Below, piece after piece: positions 1-7,689 of a stretch of 7,689 nucleotides of DNA. The notes under the pieces are model-generated. The model was not told the origin of the DNA. It searched no databases and was given only the letters and a program-made list of their open reading frames with translations. The stretch spans positions 1 through 7,689 of the forward strand of contig JAJXXG010000465.1 of assembly GCA_021781255.1 (NCBI GenBank). Reading direction: 5' to 3'. This DNA comes from Acidobacteriota bacterium. GTDB taxonomy: Bacteria > Acidobacteriota > Terriglobia > Terriglobales > Acidobacteriaceae. How positions within the stretch are numbered: position 1 is the first letter of the stretch; each line of letters starts with the position of its first letter. Both the position numbers and the translations under genes were made by a program.

Positions 1-256
1 GCGAATAAAACACGAATGTCTAGAGCCCATTTTCAACTCCATCACGGAACATTCCCCGAGTCAACCATTCCAATCCTGAAAGGTGGCCACGCTCCGTCTT
101 TATTTTTAAATCAGTAAGTTGACGGTTCCTAAAAGGCAGGTTCCTGCCTTGGAGCCCATGGTTTTGCATCAGCGAAGCACTCCAAACCAGGCTGCAGCGG
201 AGCTGGTCGACTGCATGGGAGGTTGCTTTTTGATGTGGACACGATATCTAGATAGT
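1..256. other. Non-coding left flank
   Basis: No gene is supported here. The open frame that crosses it on the minus strand is a read-through of the adjacent tRNA remnant. The only structure I see is the hairpin at 133-150 and a direct repeat GGTTCCT at 124-130 and 139-145. Because it lies beyond the 3' end of the tRNA remnant, it is most simply host DNA downstream of the original tRNA-Thr gene. It could instead be an older element in the same tRNA site. Confidence 0.5.
131..150 (-). terminator. Possible intrinsic terminator downstream of the tRNA
   Basis: AAGGCAG (133-139) and CTGCCTT (144-150) form a 7-bp stem with a 4-nt loop. Read on the minus strand, the stem is followed by a short run of four T (131-134), some of which also pair in the stem. 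It lies about 107 bp beyond the tRNA 3' end on the minus strand, where a tRNA terminator could sit. The T-run is short, so this is tentative. Confidence 0.35.
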
Positions 257-305
257 TGGAGCCGACGATCGGACTTGAACCGATGACCTGCTGATTACGA
301 ATCAG
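257..305 (-). repeat. attL: 3' half of tRNA-Thr(CGT), integration scar
   Basis: On the minus strand this reads as the 3' half of a tRNA. It has the anticodon arm with loop TTCGTAA (anticodon CGT, bases 297-299), a 5-nt variable loop, and a T arm with a perfect ATCGG/CCGAT stem and loop TTCAAGT. The acceptor strand CGTCGGC, discriminator T and encoded CCA (257-259) follow. To the right of 305 nothing resembles a D arm or the 5' acceptor strand, and the outermost anticodon-stem pair (290/306) is already broken. The tRNA is therefore truncated at the anticodon stem. A tRNA 3' fragment next to an integrase gene is the standard mark of tyrosine-recombinase integration. The polarity predicts that the intact tRNA-Thr lies at the far right end of the element, outside this window. 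Confidence 0.85.
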
Positions 306-322
306 TTTTTCGCGGCGATTCT

Positions 323-330
323 GCTGACAC
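323..330 (+). repeat. GCTGACAC motif, copy 1 (beside attL)
   Basis: A single copy of the 8-mer 18 bp inside the tRNA remnant. It has the same orientation as the copies at 388, 431 and 442. The location suits an integrase arm-type site or a regulator box. Confidence 0.5.
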
Positions 331-367
331 AAAACAAAGGCCTTTCTCAGAAATCCTTTTTATATCC

Positions 368-396
368 TTGACATACGCCGCCGACCGGCTGACACT
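368..396 (+). promoter_or_regulatory. Candidate integrase promoter
   Basis: A perfect -35 TTGACA at 368-373 is followed after 17 bp by a weak -10 (GACACT, 391-396, 3 of 6 consensus bases). The -10 would overlap the GCTGACAC motif at 388-395, so a protein bound there could block it. The -10 is poor, so the call rests mainly on the -35 and on location. Confidence 0.3.
388..395 (+). repeat. GCTGACAC motif, copy 2
   Basis: A second isolated 8-mer between attL and the integrase gene. It overlaps the proposed -10 of the integrase promoter. Confidence 0.45.
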
Positions 397-430
397 CAGA
401 GACAGCGAAAGTCACCAGAGTACGCTTTTT

Positions 431-449
431 GCTGACACAGTGCTGACAC
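431..449 (+). promoter_or_regulatory. Tandem box A: two GCTGACAC copies, 11-bp period, before int
   Basis: GCTGACAC (431-438), AGT, GCTGACAC (442-449) ends 15 bp before the integrase start codon. Its reverse complement matches box B (2695-2713) at 18 of 19 positions. The 11-bp period puts both copies on one face of the helix. Location suggests an operator for autoregulation or paired arm-type sites of the integrase or Xis. Confidence 0.65.
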
Positions 450-464
450 GAAAGGCGGCGAGAC

Positions 465-1811
465 ATGGCAGAAATAACCTCCCAGCCCGCAAGCAAGATC
501 ACGTCACTCTCTTCCAGGCGAGTGGTAAGGCCTCGCAAACCTGCCCAGCGAATTACAGAAAAGGCGCTGGCCGCTCTCATGAAAGAACCGCCAGCGAAGG
601 GTTATCGGGTCATTTGGGATACCGAGCCCGGTTTCGGCGCGAGGATCACGGCGTCTGGCCGTATAAGTTTCATTCTCATTTACAGGTTCAAGGGCGGACC
701 GCAACAGTCCTACACCATCGCGCAGCACCCTTACATGAGCTTGGAGGATGCTCGCGTCGAAGCCGGGAACCTCAAGAAGAAGATGCGCGATCCGGACAAT
801 CCAATAAACCCGCTGGACATGCGTAAAAAGGAACGTCAAGACCGTAAGTCGGCGCCAACGATCGCCGACCTGGCACAAGAATATTTGGATATGCACGCTG
901 TGAACAAACGGTCAAGCTCCCAGCGCAATGATCGCCAGATGATAAACCGCCTGATTCTTCCATACTTCAACGACGGCAAGACGAGATTGGATGACATTGC
1001 CAGTAACACTGTACAAAAGCTGCACAATTCGTTGCGAACGACTCCCTACCAGGCTAACCGCGTTCTATCGTTGTTATCCAAAATGTTCAACCTTGCGGTT
1101 GAGTGGGAGTGGGAGGGGATGAAGAAGAATGTTGCGAAGAACGTTCCGCGCTTCGACGAACCTAAGCGCGAGGGCTTTCTCGACACCGCACAGTTGCAGG
1201 ACTTTCGGCACGCGCTGGACATCTACGAGGATCAGAATGCGGCCGACGCGCTGCGATTGCTCATGCTGACGGGATCGCGCGCGAGCGAAGTGATGAAGTC
1301 CGAATGGAAACACTTCGACTTGAATCGTGGAGTCTGGACAAAACCAAGCCACCACACCAAACAGAAAAAAACTGAGCATGTACCACTGAGCAAACCCGCG
1401 TTGGAATTGCTTCTGCGAATGAAGCCGAAGAACGCAACCGGGCCGCTATTTCCGGGCAAGGAAAAAGATGGGGAGACGGAGAAGAGAGCACGCACAACGC
1501 TTCGCAATCCCTGGGTGCAAGCGTGCAGAGCGGCCGGCCTGGCAGAGGAAACGACCATCAAGAGAGGCAAGCGAAAAGGCGAAAAACGCTACCGGCCCAC
1601 GGTTCGCATCCACGATCTGCGCCACTCCTTTGCGTCGCATCTGGTCTCGAAGGGTGTGGGGCTGTACGAGGTCGGCACGCTGCTTGGGCACACGGAGGCC
1701 GAAACTACGAAGCGATACGCCCACTTGCAAGATAGAACCCTACGCGATGCGACGAACGTGTTCGGGGATATTTATTCGGAGACTGCCACGCCGAAGACGG
1801 GGACGCGATGA
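465..1811 (+). CDS. int: Tyrosine recombinase / phage-type integrase
   Basis: A site-specific recombinase that would integrate and excise the element at the tRNA-Thr site beside it. The 448-residue length is usual for P4-type integrases. An N-terminal arm-binding region (about 25-115, with GFGARITASGRISFIL) is followed by a core-binding domain (about 130-225) and the catalytic domain. All catalytic residues are visible: R272 (TGSRASEV), a likely beta-hairpin lysine near K299, H383 and R386 (HDLRHSF), H409 (LLGH) and nucleophile Y418 (KRYAH). A basic insert lies just before the HxxR box (residues 367-376). The start at 465 has a weak AAAGG at 451-455. The gene points away from the attachment site, and its 3' end overlaps the next gene by ATGA. 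The enzyme appears intact, so the element may still be mobile. Confidence 0.97.
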   Translation: MAEITSQPASKITSLSSRRVVRPRKPAQRITEKALAALMKEPPAKGYRVIWDTEPGFGARITASGRISFILIYRFKGGPQQSYTIAQHPYMSLEDARVEAGNLKKKMRDPDNPINPLDMRKKERQDRKSAPTIADLAQEYLDMHAVNKRSSSQRNDRQMINRLILPYFNDGKTRLDDIASNTVQKLHNSLRTTPYQANRVLSLLSKMFNLAVEWEWEGMKKNVAKNVPRFDEPKREGFLDTAQLQDFRHALDIYEDQNAADALRLLMLTGSRASEVMKSEWKHFDLNRGVWTKPSHHTKQKKTEHVPLSKPALELLLRMKPKNATGPLFPGKEKDGETEKRARTTLRNPWVQACRAAGLAEETTIKRGKRKGEKRYRPTVRIHDLRHSFASHLVSKGVGLYEVGTLLGHTEAETTKRYAHLQDRTLRDATNVFGDIYSETATPKTGTR

Positions 1812-2602
1812 TGGCAAGGGCTGCGCGCTCCGAGTGGATGCTTGGCAGTGATCCATTTGCCAGACCTGACGGCTATGTGGCCTTCACAATGGCATTCCCC
1901 TGTACTTGCGCTGATGTGATTGCCAGGATTGCAGAGGAACTAAAATTGACCCTCAAGAGTCTCCCCCTTGATTTCGGTTCTCAGCCGTTTCCTTGGTGGA
2001 AGCTATGGAGCGCCGGCCTGTGCGATGACATGGAGAACGGTGAGAACGATGAAAAGCGGATGCGCGTCCACGGGTCCGCTAAGGATGTGGTCGAGGCGCT
2101 GTGCCGATGCTTTACAAATGTGGACTGCAAAATCAGCGCCAGAACACTTGAATTCCGCGTGAAAGAACCATCCGAGGCGCCCGATGTATTGCGAAGGGAG
2201 AAGCTGCTGCAGATTGCAGCTACAGTTGGCCGCGGTCGACTCGCCCCCGAGGAATGGAGCAGGATCTGCGTTGAACTCGACAATGCCCAGGTCACACCCC
2301 GTGAGTGTCTGGAGCGTGAGGGGCGCGCCTTTTACATGCAATTGAAACCGGAGGATCGTCCCCGCACGGTTGCCGATCTCTTCCAGAGGTATCCAAGACT
2401 CGCAAGGCGGGGATTGCAACGGCTCAGGGACAGGTATCAGAATGACGCCCCAAAATCTTCAAAAGAACAATCGGTCTCCCCAGAAACGGAGAAAAAGTTC
2501 AGATCTGAATGGGAGTTGAAGCTTGCCGATTCAGAAGGAGACTCAGCCGAGCTTTTATCAGGCAAACGCCATTTGCGAAGACATTTGAAGCTAGACCGCT
2601 GA
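1808..2602 (+). CDS. Hypothetical protein translationally coupled to integrase
   Basis: I do not recognise this 264-residue protein. Its start overlaps the integrase stop as ATGA; a second ATG follows at once, and GGGGA at 1799-1803 can serve as ribosome binding site. The N-terminal part (1-70) is hydrophobic and tryptophan/phenylalanine-rich, with a cysteine pair (PCTC, 31-34). A second cysteine group lies at 99-107 (CRCFTNVDC). The C-terminal half is charged, with a basic helical stretch (about 185-212, FQRYPRLARRGLQRLRDRY) that could bind nucleic acid, and a polar tail. There is no signal peptide and no clear membrane segment. Coupling to int suggests co-production with the recombinase, for example as an accessory or directionality factor, but that is only context. 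The composition looks somewhat less GC-rich near the 3' end. Confidence 0.8.
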   Translation: MMARAARSEWMLGSDPFARPDGYVAFTMAFPCTCADVIARIAEELKLTLKSLPLDFGSQPFPWWKLWSAGLCDDMENGENDEKRMRVHGSAKDVVEALCRCFTNVDCKISARTLEFRVKEPSEAPDVLRREKLLQIAATVGRGRLAPEEWSRICVELDNAQVTPRECLEREGRAFYMQLKPEDRPRTVADLFQRYPRLARRGLQRLRDRYQNDAPKSSKEQSVSPETEKKFRSEWELKLADSEGDSAELLSGKRHLRRHLKLDR

Positions 2603-2694
2603 TCCCCAATCAGCGCATCTCGCTTGTTACGATCCTCGCCTCACCCTTTGTTCATGCGGTTCCCACGATAGTTTGCCGCGGCCGCTCTGAGAGC

Positions 2695-2713
2695 GTGTCA
2701 GCACAGTGTCAGC
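2695..2713 (-). promoter_or_regulatory. Tandem box B: two GTGTCAGC copies, 11-bp period, before the xis/rep unit
   Basis: GTGTCAGC (2695-2702), ACA, GTGTCAGC (2706-2713). This is box A in inverse orientation with one mismatch in 19. It lies upstream of the Xis-like gene, at a distance of about 210 bp. Confidence 0.65.
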
Positions 2714-2751
2714 AATAGCCGGCAATCGGCGCGTCGATTCCCTTCCAAACA

Positions 2752-2856
2752 TTGACAAATCGTCCGCGCTACGTTTGCGGACAAATTGTGGATAACCTCA
2801 GAACCCGCACGAATACTGATCGCGAACACCGTCGAATCGTCCGGACGGCGTTCGCG
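2752..2856. other. Candidate replication origin (DnaA box, direct repeats, hairpins)
   Basis: Seen in the sequence: TGTGGATAA at 2787-2795, the exact complement of the DnaA consensus TTATCCACA. Direct repeats GACAAAT start at 2754 and 2780, and AATCGTCCG at 2758 and 2835. GTCCGC (2762-2767) is inverted as GCGGAC (2777-2782). A strong hairpin has arms 2821-2833 and 2844-2856, 12 of 13 paired, with a 10-nt loop. These sit immediately upstream of the replication genes, as plasmid origins often do. No obvious AT-rich unwinding region is visible, and one DnaA box can occur by chance. The hairpin has no T-run, so it is not a convincing terminator. Confidence 0.4.
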
Positions 2857-2883
2857 TGCATTTAGTGACTCTGAAACGTCCTC

Positions 2884-2914
2884 CATAATTCCCCCAGTGT
2901 CACGAAAAGGGGGA
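2884..2914 (+). promoter_or_regulatory. Possible -10 and RBS-sequestering hairpin before the Xis-like gene
   Basis: CATAAT (2884-2889) matches a -10 box at 5 of 6 positions, but no good -35 precedes it. TCCCCC (2890-2895) can pair with GGGGGA (2909-2914). The G5 run is the only plausible Shine-Dalgarno for the ATG at 2923, so the stem would hide the ribosome binding site. A partial GTGTCA half-motif lies in the loop (2897-2902). Confidence 0.35.
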
Positions 2915-2922
2915 TGTTGGCA

Positions 2923-3156
2923 ATGCTTGAGTCCGAAGGTCTGCTCGATGACTACTTTCGAAAAAGTGCCCTTGTGGGCCAATTGAAAAAATCTACGCGA
3001 TGGCTGGATCGACTGGAAAAGCAGGGGAAGGGACCGCCGCGAACAAAAATCGGCCGATTGGTTCTCTATCGGAAATCGGCAGTCCGCGACTGGCTTGTTG
3101 GTTTAGAACAGTCTCCCCCCAGCCCAAGGCAACCGCGCCGCGGCCGGCAGCGGTGA
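2923..3156 (+). CDS. Small helix-turn-helix protein, AlpA/Xis-like
   Basis: A 77-residue DNA-binding protein of the MerR-like/HTH_17 excisionase type. The core reads LKKSTRWLDRLEKQGKGPPRTKIGR followed within a few residues by VLYRKSAVRDWL: a recognition helix, a short wing with PP and a final YRKSAVRDWL helix, as in AlpA-family regulators and recombination directionality factors. The C-terminal tail is proline- and arginine-rich. An in-frame ATG at 2914 directly abuts GGGGG and leaves no ribosome spacing. ATG 2923 has that G5 run 9 nt upstream, so I prefer it. It lies first in the replication unit and overlaps the next gene. It may act as Xis for the integrase, as repressor at the GCTGACAC boxes, or both; the sequence cannot separate these. 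Confidence 0.85.
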   Translation: MLESEGLLDDYFRKSALVGQLKKSTRWLDRLEKQGKGPPRTKIGRLVLYRKSAVRDWLVGLEQSPPSPRQPRRGRQR

Positions 3157-3743
3157 CAGTCGAATCCATTGCGGAGATAGCAGAGCGGATGGCAGAACTT
3201 CTGCGCGCTCGCCGCATCGGAGGTGGACGCTGGCAAGCTCGATGCCCAGCTCATCCCGATAAGAAACCATCGTTGACGATCACGATTGGCGAGCGTTGCG
3301 TTCTGCTCCGCTGTTGGTCTGCGGGCTGCTCCGTCGAGAGCATTATGGCAGCCCTGCAGTTGCCAGTGGCGTCATTGTTCGGTGATGCGCAAACCACACC
3401 GGCAGAACGTGCAGAAGCGGCGAAGGCCAGGACTGCACGCGATGCCGAAGAGTTACACCAGCGCGCCGTCGACCGCAAGGAACGCGATCGGGTTTTCAAG
3501 TTGGAGCGGTTGATGGACGCCCTGGGCGCGAAGCTGCTTTTGCGGCCGGGCGATGAAAAGTTGGTTGCATTGTTTCATCAGGTCTGCGATCGCCTTCACG
3601 ATCTGGAGCCGATCACGCCTGGCAGCTTTGATGGGCCGCTTCGACTGGAAGCTCCGCACGAAGTACCGAAATGGATCCACGATGCGTTGGTAGAAATCAG
3701 CCAAGATTTTCAAGCAGAGGATACGACGGATGAGGACCACTGA
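3153..3743 (+). CDS. CHC2-type zinc-finger primase-like protein without catalytic domain
   Basis: A 196-residue protein in this reading. It carries a primase-type zinc ribbon: GGGRWQARCPAHPDKKPSLT, then LLRCWSAGCSVESIMAAL, typical of the N-terminal DNA-binding domain of phage and plasmid primases. The ligands are C31, H34, C54 and C59. The second pair is C-x4-C, one residue longer than the common CHAGC form. A long charged helical region follows (about 75-190). No TOPRIM or archaeo-eukaryotic primase catalytic motifs are visible, so it probably guides another enzyme. I chose GTG 3153 because it overlaps the previous stop as GTGA. ATG 3189, with GGAG 12 nt upstream, is an alternative. An ATG at 3000 would overlap the HTH gene by 157 bp and is unlikely. 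The 3' end overlaps the ATPase gene by 14 bp. Confidence 0.85.
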   Translation: MTVESIAEIAERMAELLRARRIGGGRWQARCPAHPDKKPSLTITIGERCVLLRCWSAGCSVESIMAALQLPVASLFGDAQTTPAERAEAAKARTARDAEELHQRAVDRKERDRVFKLERLMDALGAKLLLRPGDEKLVALFHQVCDRLHDLEPITPGSFDGPLRLEAPHEVPKWIHDALVEISQDFQAEDTTDEDH

Positions 3744-5022
3744 TTTGCCTGAGCCAGCACCACGCGAACGCCTCAGCAAGTTTTCCGGCGATGAGATTGC
3801 CGAGCTGTTGGATATACCAGCGCGAGCGCCTAGGCCGAAATCCGATGCGAAAACCCCGTCGACATCTCCGGCCCCTGCGAAGAAGCCGGCGATACTGCTC
3901 AAGAGTTTGGGAGCCCTGATGTCTGAGCCGATCGTTGCAGTGGATTGGACCTGGGGCGGCCGCTTGGTCGCGGGAAGCGTTTCCATTCTTGCCGCCAAAC
4001 CGAAGGCGGGCAAAAGTACATTGGCGCGCAATCTTGCGCTCGCAGTGGCGAGGGGAGAGTCGTTCCTTGGTTGGTCCGCGAAGCCGGGTGCGGTCTTGTA
4101 CCTCGCCCTTGAGGAACGTTCTGCGGACGTAGCCGGAGACTTTCGCTCCATGGGTGCGGATGGGAGCGAGAACATCATGGTCGCGGATGCTGGAACCGGG
4201 ATTGAAGTTGTAGAGCTAATCAAATCCGCACGGCCGGTCCTTCTTGTGGTCGACCCTTTGTTTCGACTGGTGAACATCAAAGATGAGAAGGCATACGCCG
4301 AAACCTATACGGCACTGGGGCCGCTGATCGATGCGGCGCGCGACACCGGAACGCACATTCTCTGCCTTCACCATTCTTCGAAGCTTGCGAAGACAGAGGC
4401 GATCGACTCTCCGCTTGGATCGACCGCTCTCGGCGGCGCCGTCTCCACATTGCTTGTCCTGCGAAGGTCGGAAAAGTTTCGCTCTCTCGAAACTGTTCAG
4501 CGCGTGGGCCAGGATTTGCCGGAGACGATCCTGGAGTTTGAATTGGAAACCAAGCGCCTCTCGCTTGGAGGCAGCCGCGAGGGGAGAGAAATCCTAGATG
4601 TGGCCAGCGAAATTCTGGCATGTCTGAATGGCAAGAGCCTGATCGAGCCCGAGATAAACGACGTTTGCGAAGGCCGAACTTCTCTCAAAAGGCAAGCCAT
4701 TCGAGACCTCGTCGGCCGCGGGAAAGTTATCCGCTCAGGATCGGGGAGACGTGGCGATCCGTACACCTATGCAAAAGCCTGTTCTCTTGTTCCCGACCCT
4801 ATAGAAAAAAACGGGAACAAGAAACCTACAGAGGATTCTCCAGAAGATCAAGAAAAGCTTGTTCCCAATATCCATAGATGTAGTGGGAACAAGAAAACAA
4901 GAAACGGAAACGAGCCTGAATCCGGCATAAATGGCGGTCAAAAGCTTGTTCCCGGCGAAACGGCACCCGACCCACATTCCGAAGAGGGCGGGAACAAGCT
5001 TTCAGGGGAGGTAAGGATATGA
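3730..5022 (+). CDS. RepA-like RecA-fold ATPase (AAA_25), probable replicative helicase
   Basis: A 430-residue hexameric-helicase-type ATPase resembling plasmid RSF1010 RepA. After a proline-rich linker (1-60) come Walker A AAKPKAGKST (88-97), an acidic LALEER segment (125-130), Walker B LLVVD (171-175) and a histidine sensor motif HILCLHHSSK (209-218). A winged-helix-like part spans about 286-347 (REILDVASEIL to GDPYTYA). The tail (350-430) is low-complexity and hydrophilic. It repeats LVP and GNK three times each, at 353/362, 377/386 and 406/421, encoded by identical codons that form DNA inverted repeats. AGAGGA at 3716-3721 is well spaced for ATG 3730. It would unwind the element DNA together with the zinc-finger protein upstream. 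It is not DnaB, and no primase domain is fused. The 3' end overlaps the next gene by ATGA. Confidence 0.92.
   Translation: MRTTDLPEPAPRERLSKFSGDEIAELLDIPARAPRPKSDAKTPSTSPAPAKKPAILLKSLGALMSEPIVAVDWTWGGRLVAGSVSILAAKPKAGKSTLARNLALAVARGESFLGWSAKPGAVLYLALEERSADVAGDFRSMGADGSENIMVADAGTGIEVVELIKSARPVLLVVDPLFRLVNIKDEKAYAETYTALGPLIDAARDTGTHILCLHHSSKLAKTEAIDSPLGSTALGGAVSTLLVLRRSEKFRSLETVQRVGQDLPETILEFELETKRLSLGGSREGREILDVASEILACLNGKSLIEPEINDVCEGRTSLKRQAIRDLVGRGKVIRSGSGRRGDPYTYAKACSLVPDPIEKNGNKKPTEDSPEDQEKLVPNIHRCSGNKKTRNGNEPESGINGGQKLVPGETAPDPHSEEGGNKLSGEVRI
4785..4822. repeat. Inverted repeat 1 within repA 3' end
   Basis: TCTTGTTCCCG (4785-4795) and its exact complement (4812-4822) form an 11-bp stem with a 16-nt loop. 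It is the first of three such pairs inside the ATPase coding region. Confidence 0.85.
4858..4893. repeat. Inverted repeat 2 within repA 3' end
   Basis: CTTGTTCCCA (4858-4867) and TGGGAACAAG (4884-4893) form a 10-bp stem with a 16-nt loop, the same loop length as pair 1. The left arm with its flank (AAAAGCTTGTTCCC, 4853-4866) is repeated exactly at 4940-4953. Confidence 0.85.
4941..5002. repeat. Inverted repeat 3 within repA 3' end
   Basis: AAAGCTTGTTCCCG (4941-4954) and its exact complement (4989-5002) form a 14-bp perfect stem with a 34-nt loop. The right arm ends 3 nt before the strong ribosome binding site (GGGGAGG, 5005-5011) of the next gene. The stem could therefore also influence its translation. 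Confidence 0.85.
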
Positions 5023-5504
5023 GCGCCGCATTGGAATTAGTCCGAGCTGTCGAAGCGAATGGCGGTCAAATTCGCGTCGAAGATGGCTGCCTGGTAATCG
5101 CTCCGGGCGAGGCTGCGGAGCCGGTGATGGCCGAGCTGCGTTTGCACAAAGCGGAGATCATCGCATTGCTCTCTTCGCGTCCGATCGACCAGGCGCCACC
5201 GTTGGATGAACCCGACGCCTGGCGCGGTCCGTTTCGCCAGTGGATGACAGAGCAATGCGTCTCTAAAGATCGTTGCTTCGGCGGAATCGGCCGCTTGCTC
5301 ATCCATTTTGCGGAGTGGTCCATCGCGAATGATTCCGTTCCATGCACACGTCCGACATTCGAGACGCTGCTCACTGAGGCTGGATTCCTGCAAGCGGATG
5401 GTTTCGTGTCCGGACTGTTTCTGGCCGAAGATTGGGGCGCGGCTCGCTGTAAGCCGAGCACGAAGCAAACGCGGACGAGAAGCGGCATCTGTTCGGCTCG
5501 CTGA
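5019..5504 (+). CDS. TubC-type docking domain plus primase C-terminal-like domain protein
   Basis: A 161-residue protein. Residues 1-51 (LELVRAVEANGGQIRVEDGC to LRLHKAEIIALL) fit the TubC N-terminal docking fold (PF18563): helix, beta-hairpin, then helix with the characteristic LxxHKAEIIALL. Such domains are best known from NRPS/PKS assembly lines, where they grip the C-terminal tail of the preceding protein. Residues 69-137 (FRQWMTEQCVSKDRCFGGIG, then LLIHFAEWSIAND and FETLLTEAGF) resemble the winged-helix domain at the C terminus of P4-type primase/helicases. The last 24 residues are basic and lack obvious homology, possibly a frayed end. The start overlaps the ATPase stop as ATGA, with GGGGAGG 7 nt upstream, so both proteins should be made together. 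I infer a replication-accessory role, not a biosynthetic one. Confidence 0.8.
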   Translation: MSAALELVRAVEANGGQIRVEDGCLVIAPGEAAEPVMAELRLHKAEIIALLSSRPIDQAPPLDEPDAWRGPFRQWMTEQCVSKDRCFGGIGRLLIHFAEWSIANDSVPCTRPTFETLLTEAGFLQADGFVSGLFLAEDWGAARCKPSTKQTRTRSGICSAR

Positions 5505-5516
5505 TAGGTTATCAGC
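5500..5516. repeat. Short hairpin at the end of the replication unit
   Basis: GCTGATA, 3-nt loop GGT, TATCAGC: a perfect 7-bp stem overlapping the stop codon at 5502. There is no T-run directly after it; T6 lies 33 bp further at 5550-5555. It could be a processing or stabilising stem or an operator. It is not a convincing intrinsic terminator. Confidence 0.4.
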
Positions 5517-5594
5517 CGGTCGACAGACATAGAAGTCAGCAAGCTACTGTTTTTTAAATAACATACGCGATAGGTTCTAAATCATGGCCGTCTC

Positions 5595-5613
5595 ATGTCA
5601 GCACGATGTCAGC
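5595..5613 (-). promoter_or_regulatory. Tandem box C: two ATGTCAGC copies, 11-bp period, before the small-gene cassette
   Basis: ATGTCAGC (5595-5602), ACG, ATGTCAGC (5606-5613), matching box B at 16 of 19 positions with the same 11-bp period and orientation. It lies in the 174-bp gap before the cassette of small genes. A degenerate single copy (AGTCAGCA, 5534-5541) precedes it. Confidence 0.6.
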
Positions 5614-5678
5614 AAAAATGGCGCCGAGAGCAAGTTGGAAGTGACGGCCGCCCACAAATTGCAAGCCGGAGGTACAAA

Positions 5679-5903
5679 GTGAAATTCATTGCGAACCACC
5701 GACTGCATTTTCGTTCGGGGAATCGGCAGCTCGTGATTATCGAGCAGTCTGGCGCCCAGGAGATCCCCGATTGGGCTTTGAATGATCCTCTTTTTTCGGC
5801 TGCGCTGTCAGTCGGGTTTATAAGACGCGCGGAATCGGAACCGGACGCAACACTCCAACCTGCACCCGTGGCAGAAACGCGGGCCCGGAGGCGAGCGAAA
5901 TGA
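5679..5903 (+). CDS. Small conserved-looking protein of the accessory cassette
   Basis: A 74-residue protein of unknown function. It opens with KFIANHRLHFRSGNRQLVII, a beta-strand-rich stretch, followed by a motif (QEIPDWALNDPLFSAAL) that looks conserved, and a basic tail ending RARRRAK. I recall similar short proteins in phage-like gene runs but cannot name the family. An in-frame ATG at 5595 exists but is itself part of the TGTCAGC repeat and has no ribosome binding site. The GTG at 5679 has GGAGG at 5668-5672, 6 nt upstream, and begins exactly at the plausible protein start. It overlaps the next gene by ATGA. Confidence 0.75.
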   Translation: MKFIANHRLHFRSGNRQLVIIEQSGAQEIPDWALNDPLFSAALSVGFIRRAESEPDATLQPAPVAETRARRRAK

Positions 5904-6067
5904 CAGACAAGCGATCCGATCGGCTGATCCGCGGACAATTTACGACGATGGACGCCGGCGAAATTCCGAAGCCTCAGCCGGCGCTCGCACAACGCACCGA
6001 CACAGATACCAAACGAGCTGCGGAATGGCGCGATTTTATCCGTCGCGGCCTGGAGGATCGAGATTGA
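5900..6067 (+). CDS. 55-residue hypothetical protein
   Basis: A tiny open frame starting MTDKRSDRLIRGQF and ending RRGLEDRD. It is hydrophilic, strongly charged, with no membrane segment or recognisable domain. Support comes from GGAGG at 5887-5891 (8 nt before ATG) and from two 4-bp overlaps: ATGA with the preceding stop and TTGA with the following start. This places it inside an unbroken coupled chain. Function is unknown. Confidence 0.7.
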   Translation: MTDKRSDRLIRGQFTTMDAGEIPKPQPALAQRTDTDTKRAAEWRDFIRRGLEDRD

Positions 6068-6309
6068 AAGATCCGCTCAAAACGAAAAGAGGTCGAGCGT
6101 GCATTGTTCTGCGCCGGGAACTTTCGCGGGGACCTGTGCCGGTGGCGGAGTTACGCGCTCGTCTCGACTGCTCGGAGAGGACTCTTCAAAATGCCGGCCG
6201 CTTGATCGGTATTCAGAGAAGCCGCGCGGGACTACGCGGGCCCTGGCTGTGGCAACTTGCAGCACAGTCTCAACCAAACGCCGAAACCACCGAAAGGAAC
6301 ACAGCATGA
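6064..6309 (+). CDS. Winged-helix-like small DNA-binding protein, TTG start
   Basis: An 81-residue protein. The centre reads GPVPVAELRARLDCSERTLQ and ends in a wing-like GLRGPWLWQL. This pattern (PVPVAEL, then a helix, SERTLQ as recognition helix, and a wing ending W-x-W) is that of the winged-helix domains found at the ends of RepA-like ATPases and primases of mobile elements. A longer reading from ATG 6025 overlaps the previous gene by 43 bp. TTG 6064 instead gives a TTGA overlap and has GGAGG at 6052-6056, 7 nt upstream, so I prefer it. It may be a regulator or a detached replication domain. Its 3' end overlaps the next start as ATGA. Confidence 0.75.
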   Translation: MKDPLKTKRGRACIVLRRELSRGPVPVAELRARLDCSERTLQNAGRLIGIQRSRAGLRGPWLWQLAAQSQPNAETTERNTA

Positions 6310-6482
6310 ACTTTGCCGACACAAACGGACCGATTCCTGAAGGGCAATTCGATCCAATCACTCCATCGCGGAACGTGCCGAATCCGATCCCGACGAAGGA
6401 CGAAGGACCGCTTGATCTTCCGTTAGGACCGCAGGACGTACCTGGTGCAGCCAATAATCCTCGGAATCGTGAAGGCAGTTGA
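6306..6482 (+). CDS. 58-residue proline-rich hypothetical protein
   Basis: Begins MNFADTNGPIPEGQFDPITP and continues with repeated P, N, G and D residues. It is probably disordered; no domain is recognised. AAGGA at 6294-6298 lies 7 nt before the ATG, which overlaps the preceding stop as ATGA. The frame stays open upstream to 6099, but that extension overlaps the winged-helix gene completely and has no ribosome binding site. It may be a linker, scaffold or minor structural protein of a phage-like cassette; that is speculation. Confidence 0.65.
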   Translation: MNFADTNGPIPEGQFDPITPSRNVPNPIPTKDEGPLDLPLGPQDVPGAANNPRNREGS

Positions 6483-6513
6483 ACGCGCTGGACATGCCAA
6501 GAGATGACACGCG

Positions 6514-6906
6514 ATGACGAAAGTGAAGAAGCCTACAGCCACCGGGAAGGCCCGCAAGAAGCAACAGGCAATTACTGCGCTGTTGGAGGCGCCAACAATT
6601 CGCGAAGCCGCGGAGGCGTGCGGGGTTTCGGTGCGCACACTACAGCGATGGCTCGCCGAGTCCTCTTTTTCGGAAGAATACCGGCGAGCGAAGGTTTCAT
6701 TGTTGTCGGCCGCAGCAGGGAGACTGTCCGCAGCTACAGGCCTCGCAACGTCGGTTTTGATGCACATCGCGGCGGATCAACATTCCCCGTCCGCAGCGAG
6801 AGTCACCGCGGCGCGCGCGATTATCGAACACGCGCAACGCGATCGCGAGCAGGATGATTTGGCGGTGAGAATCTCCAAACTTGAATCGATCAGGGAGGAA
6901 GCGTGA
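6514..6906 (+). CDS. Helix-turn-helix protein resembling terminase small subunit / phBC6A51 type
   Basis: A 130-residue protein. After a lysine-rich N-terminus, residues 16-49 (QQAITALLEAPTIREAAEAC, then GVSVRTLQRWL) form a clear helix-turn-helix like those of transposase N-termini and phage terminase small subunits. Residues 52-111 (FSEEYRRAKVSLLSAAAGRL and on to ARAIIEHAQR) are all-helical, as in phBC6A51-type phage HTH proteins, where a central domain mediates oligomerisation. A coiled-coil tail ends ISKLESIREEA. The ribosome binding site is weak (AAGAG at 6499-6503, 10 nt upstream), unlike its neighbours, and 31 bp separate it from the previous gene. It could recognise a packaging site or act as a regulator. 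No large terminase is visible in the window. Confidence 0.75.
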   Translation: MTKVKKPTATGKARKKQQAITALLEAPTIREAAEACGVSVRTLQRWLAESSFSEEYRRAKVSLLSAAAGRLSAATGLATSVLMHIAADQHSPSAARVTAARAIIEHAQRDREQDDLAVRISKLESIREEA

Positions 6907-7178
6907 CGCTCGAGGAACTAAAACGGCGAATGACTGCGCTGGAGAAATCAGACGGCGGCGATGTGACGTTTCGGCTCACCGATGGCACCACGACAACACT
7001 GAGACGACGCGAAGCACTGGACGCGATGCGGGAGGCGATTGCCGGCGTGGACAGTCCCCGAGCGCGCGCGATGACCATGGCAACATCCGCGTCGGACGGT
7101 TCCCGGTTGCATGAAATGGCGCGAGCATTTCTCGCCGGACCTGTGCCCCGCGGAACGCTCAACGAGCAGCAAGACTAA
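6903..7178 (+). CDS. 91-residue hypothetical protein, GTG start
   Basis: Unknown function. It begins with a helix (TLEELKRRMTALEKS), then a beta-hairpin (DVTFRLTDGTTTTLRRREAL), followed by helical segments to the end. The GTG overlaps the previous stop as GTGA, and GGAGG at 6894-6898 is 4 nt upstream, which strongly supports this start. The coupling to the HTH gene suggests the two act together. Confidence 0.75.
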   Translation: MTLEELKRRMTALEKSDGGDVTFRLTDGTTTTLRRREALDAMREAIAGVDSPRARAMTMATSASDGSRLHEMARAFLAGPVPRGTLNEQQD

Positions 7179-7198
7179 AAAATCCGAGGAGAATCGAC

Positions 7199-7689
7199 AT
7201 GGAAAACAATCTCGAAACAAATGCCGGCGCGATCGATCTTAATGTCGAGCGTGCAAAACTTGCCAGCGCCAAGGCCGCCGTCCAAGAGCACGAATTGGTG
7301 ATCGCACAAGAGGAGTTACGCCTGGCTGAGCAGTCTCACGCATCTGCACTGGAAGAATGTCGGACCGCACAGACGGCTTTCGATCGACTCGACGCCGAGA
7401 CGAATGAGGCGCAGCATCTGGCCTTACAAGCGGCCACCGCGAAAGAGGGAGCGGCGAAGGCTATCGACACGCACCGCAGAAATCCGCCAACCACGCGATT
7501 CGATAGCGGCCGTCCATTGAGTCAATTGGCCATGAAGGAATGGCGAGAAGAACTGCCGAAGCTAATCGCAAAAAAAGAATCGGCGGACGCTGCACACACG
7601 CAAGCATTCGCGACGCTGCAACGCCTTCAGGGCGAGCGGCGCCTGGCGGGAACAGCCTTGGAGACTGCGAGCTGGCGCGCGAGCGATGC
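7199..7689 (+). CDS. Coiled-coil protein, 3'-truncated by the window edge
   Basis: An open frame of 163 complete codons that runs off the right edge with no stop. It starts MENNLETNAGAIDLNVERAK, with AGGAG at 7187-7191, 7 nt before the ATG. Residues 17-90 are a continuous alanine- and glutamate-rich helix with heptad-like spacing (LASAKAAVQEHELVIAQEEL and on). A break follows at 93-106 (RRNPPTTRFDSGRP) before a second coiled coil. The whole is hydrophilic with no signal peptide or membrane segment. The shape resembles phage scaffolding or minor structural proteins as well as generic coiled-coil proteins, so no function is assigned. Confidence 0.8.
   Translation, partial: MENNLETNAGAIDLNVERAKLASAKAAVQEHELVIAQEELRLAEQSHASALEECRTAQTAFDRLDAETNEAQHLALQAATAKEGAAKAIDTHRRNPPTTRFDSGRPLSQLAMKEWREELPKLIAKKESADAAHTQAFATLQRLQGERRLAGTALETASWRASD

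Follow-up and report, generated by a model that had tools for sequence, protein, structure and literature searches.

The 7,689-nt stretch of DNA analysed here (hereafter the window) comes from an Acidobacteriota bacterium of the Acidobacteriaceae (GCA_021781255.1, contig JAJXXG010000465.1, positions 1-7,689, forward strand) and carries a gene for an AAA_25/RepA-like helicase of the RecA fold (3730..5022, forward strand, 430 codons; Pfam AAA_25, E 2.7e-27; AlphaFold2 (AF2) model), the proposed initiator of the element described below. The last 240 bases of this gene contain six exact copies of one short repeat, with CTTGTTCCC at 4786, 4858 and 4945 on the forward strand alternating with its complement GGGAACAAG at 4813, 4885 and 4990. 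All six lie where a first-pass annotation of this DNA had placed them. No seventh copy was found in the window even with one mismatch, for which dinucleotide shuffles expect 1.74. The helicase gene is preceded by a tyrosine integrase (465..1811, forward strand; Pfam Phage_integrase, E 2.8e-22), a weakly excisionase-like gene and a primase-like gene (3000..3743, forward strand; PHROG DNA primase, E 7e-11), in this order; the primase-like gene overlaps the helicase gene and gave a weak match to a CHC2 zinc finger (Pfam Zn_ribbon_DnaG, E 0.006, under Pfam's cut-off). Because integrase, excisionase-like and primase-like genes precede that of the helicase, the neighbourhood suggests an integrative element. 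Primase modules with RepA-type helicases are described as widespread in integrated elements (PMC5862659; this and the other published accounts are drawn on in excerpt).

Repeat and motif scans resolve the array into three inverted pairs, or dyads, of the unit CTTGTTCC, each with a left arm on the forward strand and an inverted right arm on the reverse strand. The arms, numbered as putative iterons 1 to 6, occupy 4786..4793 and 4814..4821 in dyad 1, 4858..4865 and 4886..4893 in dyad 2, and 4945..4952 and 4991..4998 in dyad 3. Stems of 11, 10 and 14 bp had been reported, and the repeat listing and the sequence agree with these lengths: the outer two are perfect (4785-4795/4812-4822 and 4941-4954/4989-5002), and the middle one, given as 13 nt at 92%, amounts to 10 perfect pairs. 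A TATA lies between the arms of dyad 1 (4800..4803, forward strand). Dyads 1 and 2 are overlapped by the lowest-GC stretch of the window (4751..4950), a candidate unwinding region; 150-bp windows over the array have 41-43% GC, the lowest values in the window, against 56% overall. The array ends 20 bp ahead of the next gene. An exact 13-bp direct repeat, AATGGCGGTCAAA, was also noted at 4930-4942, between dyads 2 and 3, and at 5058-5070, inside the next gene. By eye, a box loosely resembling it (AAACAYTG) stands about 16 nt upstream of the corresponding unit in several of the other arrays described below.

In the protein the repeats spell LVP three times and GNK three times, always with identical codons as the first-pass annotation had stated, and in the window each orientation stays in one reading frame. 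Selection for LVP/GNK-type peptides, or chance, might account for such a pattern, and the peptide repeats are conserved in close relatives. We resampled the codons of the tail synonymously 20,000 times with the gene's own codon usage and counted the commonest 8-mer. No run exceeded four copies of any 8-mer, a maximum reached in 41 of the 20,000, compared with six observed; the repeats are therefore not driven by the protein. Relatives, moreover, encode different peptides (FSCS, GTREQ, RTSVQ, SXP) with the same or covarying DNA, and the tail is disordered in the AF2 model (residues 359-430, 4804..5019, forward strand, most of the array as protein). Peptide selection or chance is barely credible as an origin of the repeats, being ruled out by the resampling together with the arrays of relatives. 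Selection on the DNA instead of the peptide is strongly supported by these comparisons.

Relatives were collected by searches of 396, 300, 397, 14, 193 and 12 genomes, which were overlapping draws, and wide flanks were taken for 20 places. Together with the window, 21 loci were scanned for the densest 8-mer cluster with no preset motif. An array is present at the corresponding gene tail in 16 of the 21. The densest cluster is in the AAA_25 tail in nine of them (the window, G001, G505, G657, G666, G742, G144, G835a and G853), and the tail cluster ties for the top in four more (G612, G654, G246 and G911). L001, a metagenome-assembled Acidobacteriaceae genome with 59-60% identity and the only relative found in the genome-contig search, has the window's unit in the corresponding place plus extra tandem copies 8 bp apart. 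In G911 (L187:4271-5081) the array extends beyond the stop codon of a helicase gene apparently without its N-terminal part. G911 was considered as an array in noncoding DNA and rejected as such: with three homologues as queries, tblastn aligns no more than their C-terminal part, so that the gene is apparently truncated at its 5' end. We count it among the 16 as a remnant and draw no evidence for a noncoding function from it.

The unit differs among elements. It is CTTGTTCC in the window, G001 and G505, CTGGTTCC in G657 and G666, CTTGTACG in G742 and G612, CTGGTTCG in G654, CTTGTTC[TC] in G634 (two variants intermixed), AGGTTCCC-like in G144, G835a, G246, G853 and G356, AGGTTT in G835b and GTGTTCCC in G911. 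Within an element most arms share the unit, and the arms mostly covary, in any reading frame; single arms deviate, for example one each in G001, G742 and G612. Copies of the same orientation fall into different frames in G001, G657, G666 and G742, encoding for instance CS and VP in G001 and TGS and LVP in G666. Units of at least 7 bases have 0-2 copies elsewhere in loci of 8-20 kb, and the two 6-base units have 4 and 10. The first-pass annotation had proposed DNA-level selection and had suggested looking in homologous tails for element-specific inverted repeats with covariation between the arms. Both are borne out by these element-specific units at the same place, with covarying arms and one orientation read in different frames. 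Conserved LVP/GNK peptides with freely varying codons, or close relatives free of repeats, which the annotation held to count against its proposal, were not encountered.

Starts of successive units lie 28, 44, 28, 59 and 46 positions apart in the window, 28, 56, 28, 59 and 46 in G505, and 28, 64, 28, 60 and 46 in G657, a spacing nearly fixed inside dyads and more variable between them. Peptide spacing was read from the 26 of 120 listed homologues that fit the LVP/GNK pattern, the regular expression limiting which gaps are visible. Dyad 1 has an internal gap of 6 residues in all 26 and dyad 2 in 25 of the 26, and the internal gap of dyad 3 is 12 or 13; the gap takes four values between dyads 1 and 2 and three between dyads 2 and 3.

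Inverted arms may also be selected for pairing itself and not for recognition by a protein, as single-strand hairpins in mRNA or in single-stranded DNA extruded for priming as in pRN1. The stems of 11, 10 and 14 bp fit this explanation, as do the arms that remain largely complementary in relatives, and in pRN1 and its relatives the stem-loop used adjoins the gene for a replication protein with a winged helix (PMC4234260). Selected pairing should extend the stems with compensatory changes of their own, and no clear extension beyond the unit was seen. Among 25 dyads, the inner flanks pair no more than expected (first position: 11 of 25, 8.8 expected; second position: 6, 5.9 expected), and pairing at the first outer position (20 of 25) is high largely through trimming of the unit there. 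Only the second outer position is slightly above chance (12 of 25 against 7.4; 76 of 2000 shuffles, borderline). The arms of one array, furthermore, share one sequence and not a separate one per stem, in G666, G144, G835a and G001 left and right arms differ in number or copies stand in tandem at 8-bp steps, and the unit type goes with the helicase's winged helix (see below). Hairpins are thus unsupported by the stem-extension test and rather unlikely. Of the stems first described, the pairing itself stands; inverted half-sites for a protein are a more apt description of it than hairpins.

The AF2 model of the helicase, built on a 33-row alignment, is mostly confident in the ATPase domain and confident in a C-terminal winged helix (residues 283-349; 4576..4776, forward strand), which we propose as the domain that binds the units. 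The winged helix is composed of helices 283-298, 306-312 and 317-329 and strands 333-336 and 346-349, with blocks over 281-350 at a predicted local distance difference test (pLDDT) of 92-95. The pLDDT falls below 50 from residue 359, where the disordered tail begins, and 10-residue blocks from 361 are at 32-42. Folding the winged helix by itself from a single sequence gave a poor model (pLDDT 51), which was disregarded. Foldseek matched the model to RadA and RSF1010 RepA, and Pfam, AF2 and Foldseek agree in identifying a RecA-fold ATPase.

Mutual information places the residues that covary most with the unit in the winged helix, among them the recognition helix and the residue preceding it (316-329; 4675..4716, forward strand). 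In a second homologue set (42 typed proteins), all of the top eight columns out of 294 belong to the winged helix. Two of them tie for first place: the second residue of the R-[GA]-x-x-x-[SG]-K segment that opens the recognition helix, and a residue seven positions before it. In the first set 93 of 120 proteins could be typed, with two residue classes represented by four proteins each. Of its 260 columns, residue 316 is the best and 8 of the top 10 belong to the winged helix; with LVP-type proteins excluded (45 proteins), 8 of the top 10 are again located there and residue 316 is second. Averaged over each region, the excess information is highest in the turn (0.32), followed by helix 2 (0.20), the recognition helix (0.19) and helix 1 (0.16), and is lowest in the ATPase (0.09-0.11) and the wing (0.09). 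A tree was also built from the ATPase only (39 proteins, five unit types, 15 of 36 inner branches well supported). On the best such tree the unit type needs at least 13 changes, compared with 20.3 with shuffled labels; it switches repeatedly there while tracking the C-terminal winged helix. The presence or absence of G at the recognition-helix residue agrees with GGAC or GGAA cores in 34 of 36 proteins (Fisher 7e-8, uncorrected for kinship; 11 rows were left out as 5 ties, 4 unparsed and 2 short), and in the four well-supported independent contrasts a mean of 3.9 agree and none disagrees. From this covariation we infer that the winged helix binds the units; the earlier proposal that the repeats are bound by RepA gains support from it.

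Features expected of an iteron origin are found with the arrays. Several short repeats of one sequence are clustered at the putative initiator gene, and they are adjoined by an AT-rich region, seen as AT-rich sequence only. All 16 arrays have a lower GC content than their gene body. TATA is present in 12 of 19 short dyad loops (15 arrays), compared with 1.3 by shuffling, partly via the ATA isoleucine codon, which makes up 20 of 41 in tails and 22 of 319 in gene bodies. Classical iteron plasmids have mostly direct repeats, whereas the orientation here alternates or is mixed and is closer to origins of inverted sites; "iteron-type" therefore refers to a manner of working and not to class membership. 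In this sense, the array is probably an iteron-type replication origin, or at least a sequence-specific loading site, embedded in the 3' end of its own initiator helicase gene. In the mechanism we propose, the C-terminal winged helix of the RepA-like AAA_25 protein would bind the 8-bp units, whose inverted pairs frame an AT-rich core with TATA. Opposed rings of the helicase would assemble at these pairs, the AT-rich DNA would open and the element's primase would then start synthesis. The protein tail encoded by the array, predicted to be disordered, would be free to follow whatever the DNA spells.

The 20 bp between the array and the next gene and the TATA within the dyads are also consistent with an operator array, through which RepA or another protein of the element would control transcription of the downstream genes starting at 5019; element-specific operators with cognate repressors are commonplace. 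Elsewhere in the loci, however, the unit hardly occurs, even at the starts of other genes, and the covariation is with the helicase's own winged helix, and we consider an operator unlikely. A single cluster per element suits any cis site and could also serve for partition, packaging or recombination, with RepA or a partner still binding to it; genes for terminase-like small subunits are nearby in the window and in G144. Yet the partner implied by the covariation is a helicase whose gene has a primase-like neighbour or, in many homologues, includes primase domains, and a site of this kind is very unlikely.

Several results weigh against an origin at the gene tail. In three of the 21 loci (G634, G835b and G356) the tail array was seen by eye and denser repeats occur elsewhere in the locus. 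No array was found in five of the 21 AAA_25 loci (G563, G478, G612b, G505b and G698), all of them without a comparable tail, and G492 is without one as well. The array units were picked after inspection for the copy count. Helix 1 and helix 2 also carry more information than the ATPase, and winged helix and array adjoin, so that physical linkage alone could tie them; linkage alone would predict a rise toward the array, and the wing, which is nearest to it, is low instead (0.09), although its low information may partly reflect its conservation. With four contrasts the sign test gives p 0.125 and cannot reach 0.05. When the G/not-G rule was applied to 46 fresh proteins, 8 were scorable, of which 6 were right and 2 failed; one scorable protein is close to one used before, and the position ahead of the G/not-G residue is occupied by K rather than R in both failures and in one of the successes. 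A viral-contig scan with a single protein gave no relative and a scan with an alignment gave nine, in eight of which the inverted-repeat scan revealed no clear array. Loss of PrimPol in Thermus ICETh2 is described as not impairing replication of the element (PMC7693054).

The arrangement resembles that of Rep/ori in Staphylococcus aureus pathogenicity islands (SaPI) and of Cch2 and its putative ori in the staphylococcal cassette chromosome (SCC) SCCmec: an element-encoded helicase, C-terminal recognition of iterons, here predicted, and a primase partner. A C-terminal DNA-binding domain after the helicase and iterons at or beyond the gene end are common to both, as an arrangement only. The SaPI and Cch2 helicases are of another family than RecA-fold AAA_25, and no SaPI Rep or Cch2 helicase is among the best 50 Foldseek matches listed, no direct comparison having been made. 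In the account excerpted, the C-terminal domain of SaPI Rep and SCC Cch2 recognises iterons beside its own gene, and these iterons, unlike those here, lie downstream of or between genes with no in-frame embedding (PMC7581432). Lambda ori has four inverted-repeat iterons and an AT-rich region inside gene O (PMC6022878). The likeness to lambda O and ori-lambda consists in putative initiator sites inside the initiator coding sequence, inverted repeats and an adjoining AT-rich region; the position of the repeats is observed here, and their role as initiator sites is the presumed part. Here, unlike in lambda, the sites are carried by a helicase within its disordered 3' tail, and from element to element the unit changes together with the winged helix. 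Lambda O is not a helicase, and the Pfam, PHROG and NCBIfam matches listed are to helicase, primase, other ATPase or unknown families, with no O-like initiator among them.

RSF1010 RepA (1nlf, 1g8y) shares the RecA-fold hexameric helicase domain predicted here (1nlf: Foldseek E 4e-12, target-normalised template modelling (TM) score 0.67). Its solved chains of 242-254 residues are too short for such a winged helix and tail, and origin recognition in RSF1010 is by RepC. ORF904 of pRN1 is likewise a replication protein with a C-terminal winged helix, and the pRN1 origin, a stem-loop, lies just downstream of the gene (PMC4234260). It differs in being one 100-nt stem-loop conserved in structure and not in sequence, outside the coding region and with a superfamily 3 (SF3) helicase. 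The arrays show no long stem selected irrespective of sequence, given the absence of clear extension and the unequal arm numbers. PrimPol-PV1 shares the domain set of PrimPol, RepA-type ATPase and C-terminal winged helix, the last suggested for origin recognition, and the excerpt identifies no origin sequence for RepA-type members (PMC5862659). In the phage-inducible chromosomal island-like elements (PLE), RepA is described as going together with repeats that lie in a region required for replication (PMC7145576).

Neither iteron origins nor origins within an initiator gene are new in themselves. What looks new is the family of the initiator, the embedding irrespective of frame and the apparent code of recognition, and among the papers listed by searches of the open-licence literature none was seen to describe iterons in AAA_25 tails. 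Beyond the window, we see an even chance that such elements form a class of integrative replicons spanning several phyla. Winged helix and origin would there make up a single exchangeable specificity cassette at the gene's 3' end, the disordered tail would be the origin read in any frame, and the residue-to-base code would be readable from sequences. The code would then consist mostly of RG versus RA/RT at the recognition helix for GGAC versus GGAA cores, of R-G-W-x-V-G for most GGACT units and of a wing T versus K/R for CTGG versus CTTG. Repeated cassette exchange would then create new incompatibility groups. If the origin reading is right, in many elements with primase modules and RepA-type helicases the origin could be located, and the DNA specificity of the initiator partly predicted, from sequence alone. 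Puzzling low-complexity protein tails would be accounted for by ribosomes translating through DNA sites, which cautions against taking such tails for protein domains, and the natural pairs of unit and winged helix offer a direct way of testing the recognition code in vitro.

At the DNA level, arrays were observed in Acidobacteriota genomes and a single Planctomycete-type contig only, and elsewhere they are deduced from peptides. The contig, L135, is a viral contig with a Planctomycete-type element (a protein holding the identical stretch is named Thermoguttaceae) and has a clear tail array on the longer unit ATTCGGTTCCC (L135:6100-6560), with arms up to 16 bp. Among the homologues of the L135 protein, which include proteins named Deltaproteobacteria and Chloroflexota, tails contain S-X-P and G-Y-E-S peptides that correspond to each other: the residue Y is the one expected from reading the codon of X in reverse complement (X/Y pairs V/T, I/I, L/R, C/H and S/L). 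Among 240 proteins of both homologue sets, 180 have a tail and 44 have both peptides. With codons inferred from the peptides, the commonest residues match by reverse complement in 26 of the 44, and S-X-P and G-Y-E match in 76 of 133 peptide pairs, compared with a permutation mean of 13% and a maximum of 34% (10,000 permutations). Peptides such as RESNGNRMESN in P0139 and similar tails suggest, again with codons inferred, tandem units 10-11 bp apart, which is one helical turn, versus the 8-bp steps in Acidobacteria. A scan of IMG/VR for TTGTTCCC-gap-GGGAACAA returned at least 120 loci, which were assumed to be mostly chance matches and were not used. Phage and plasmid records gave only distant matches, with at most 31% identity among the matches listed.

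The gene following the helicase (5019-5504) overlaps its stop codon (ATGA) and has no match in Pfam, PHROG or NCBIfam. A gene at this position starts alike in G001 and several other relatives; judged by this recurrence, it is a conserved partner. A tRNA-like covariance match lies just ahead of the integrase at 260-316 on the reverse strand (24.4 bits, against an Rfam gathering score of 29) and is possibly a partial attachment site; ARAGORN called no tRNA in the window, including 260-316. Downstream of the helicase gene, a terminase-small-subunit-like gene is located at 6514-6906 (PHROG, E 1.6e-7), and G144 likewise has one downstream of its helicase gene (Terminase_2, L175:10703-11260). These terminase-like genes hint at a phage or phage-satellite lifestyle.
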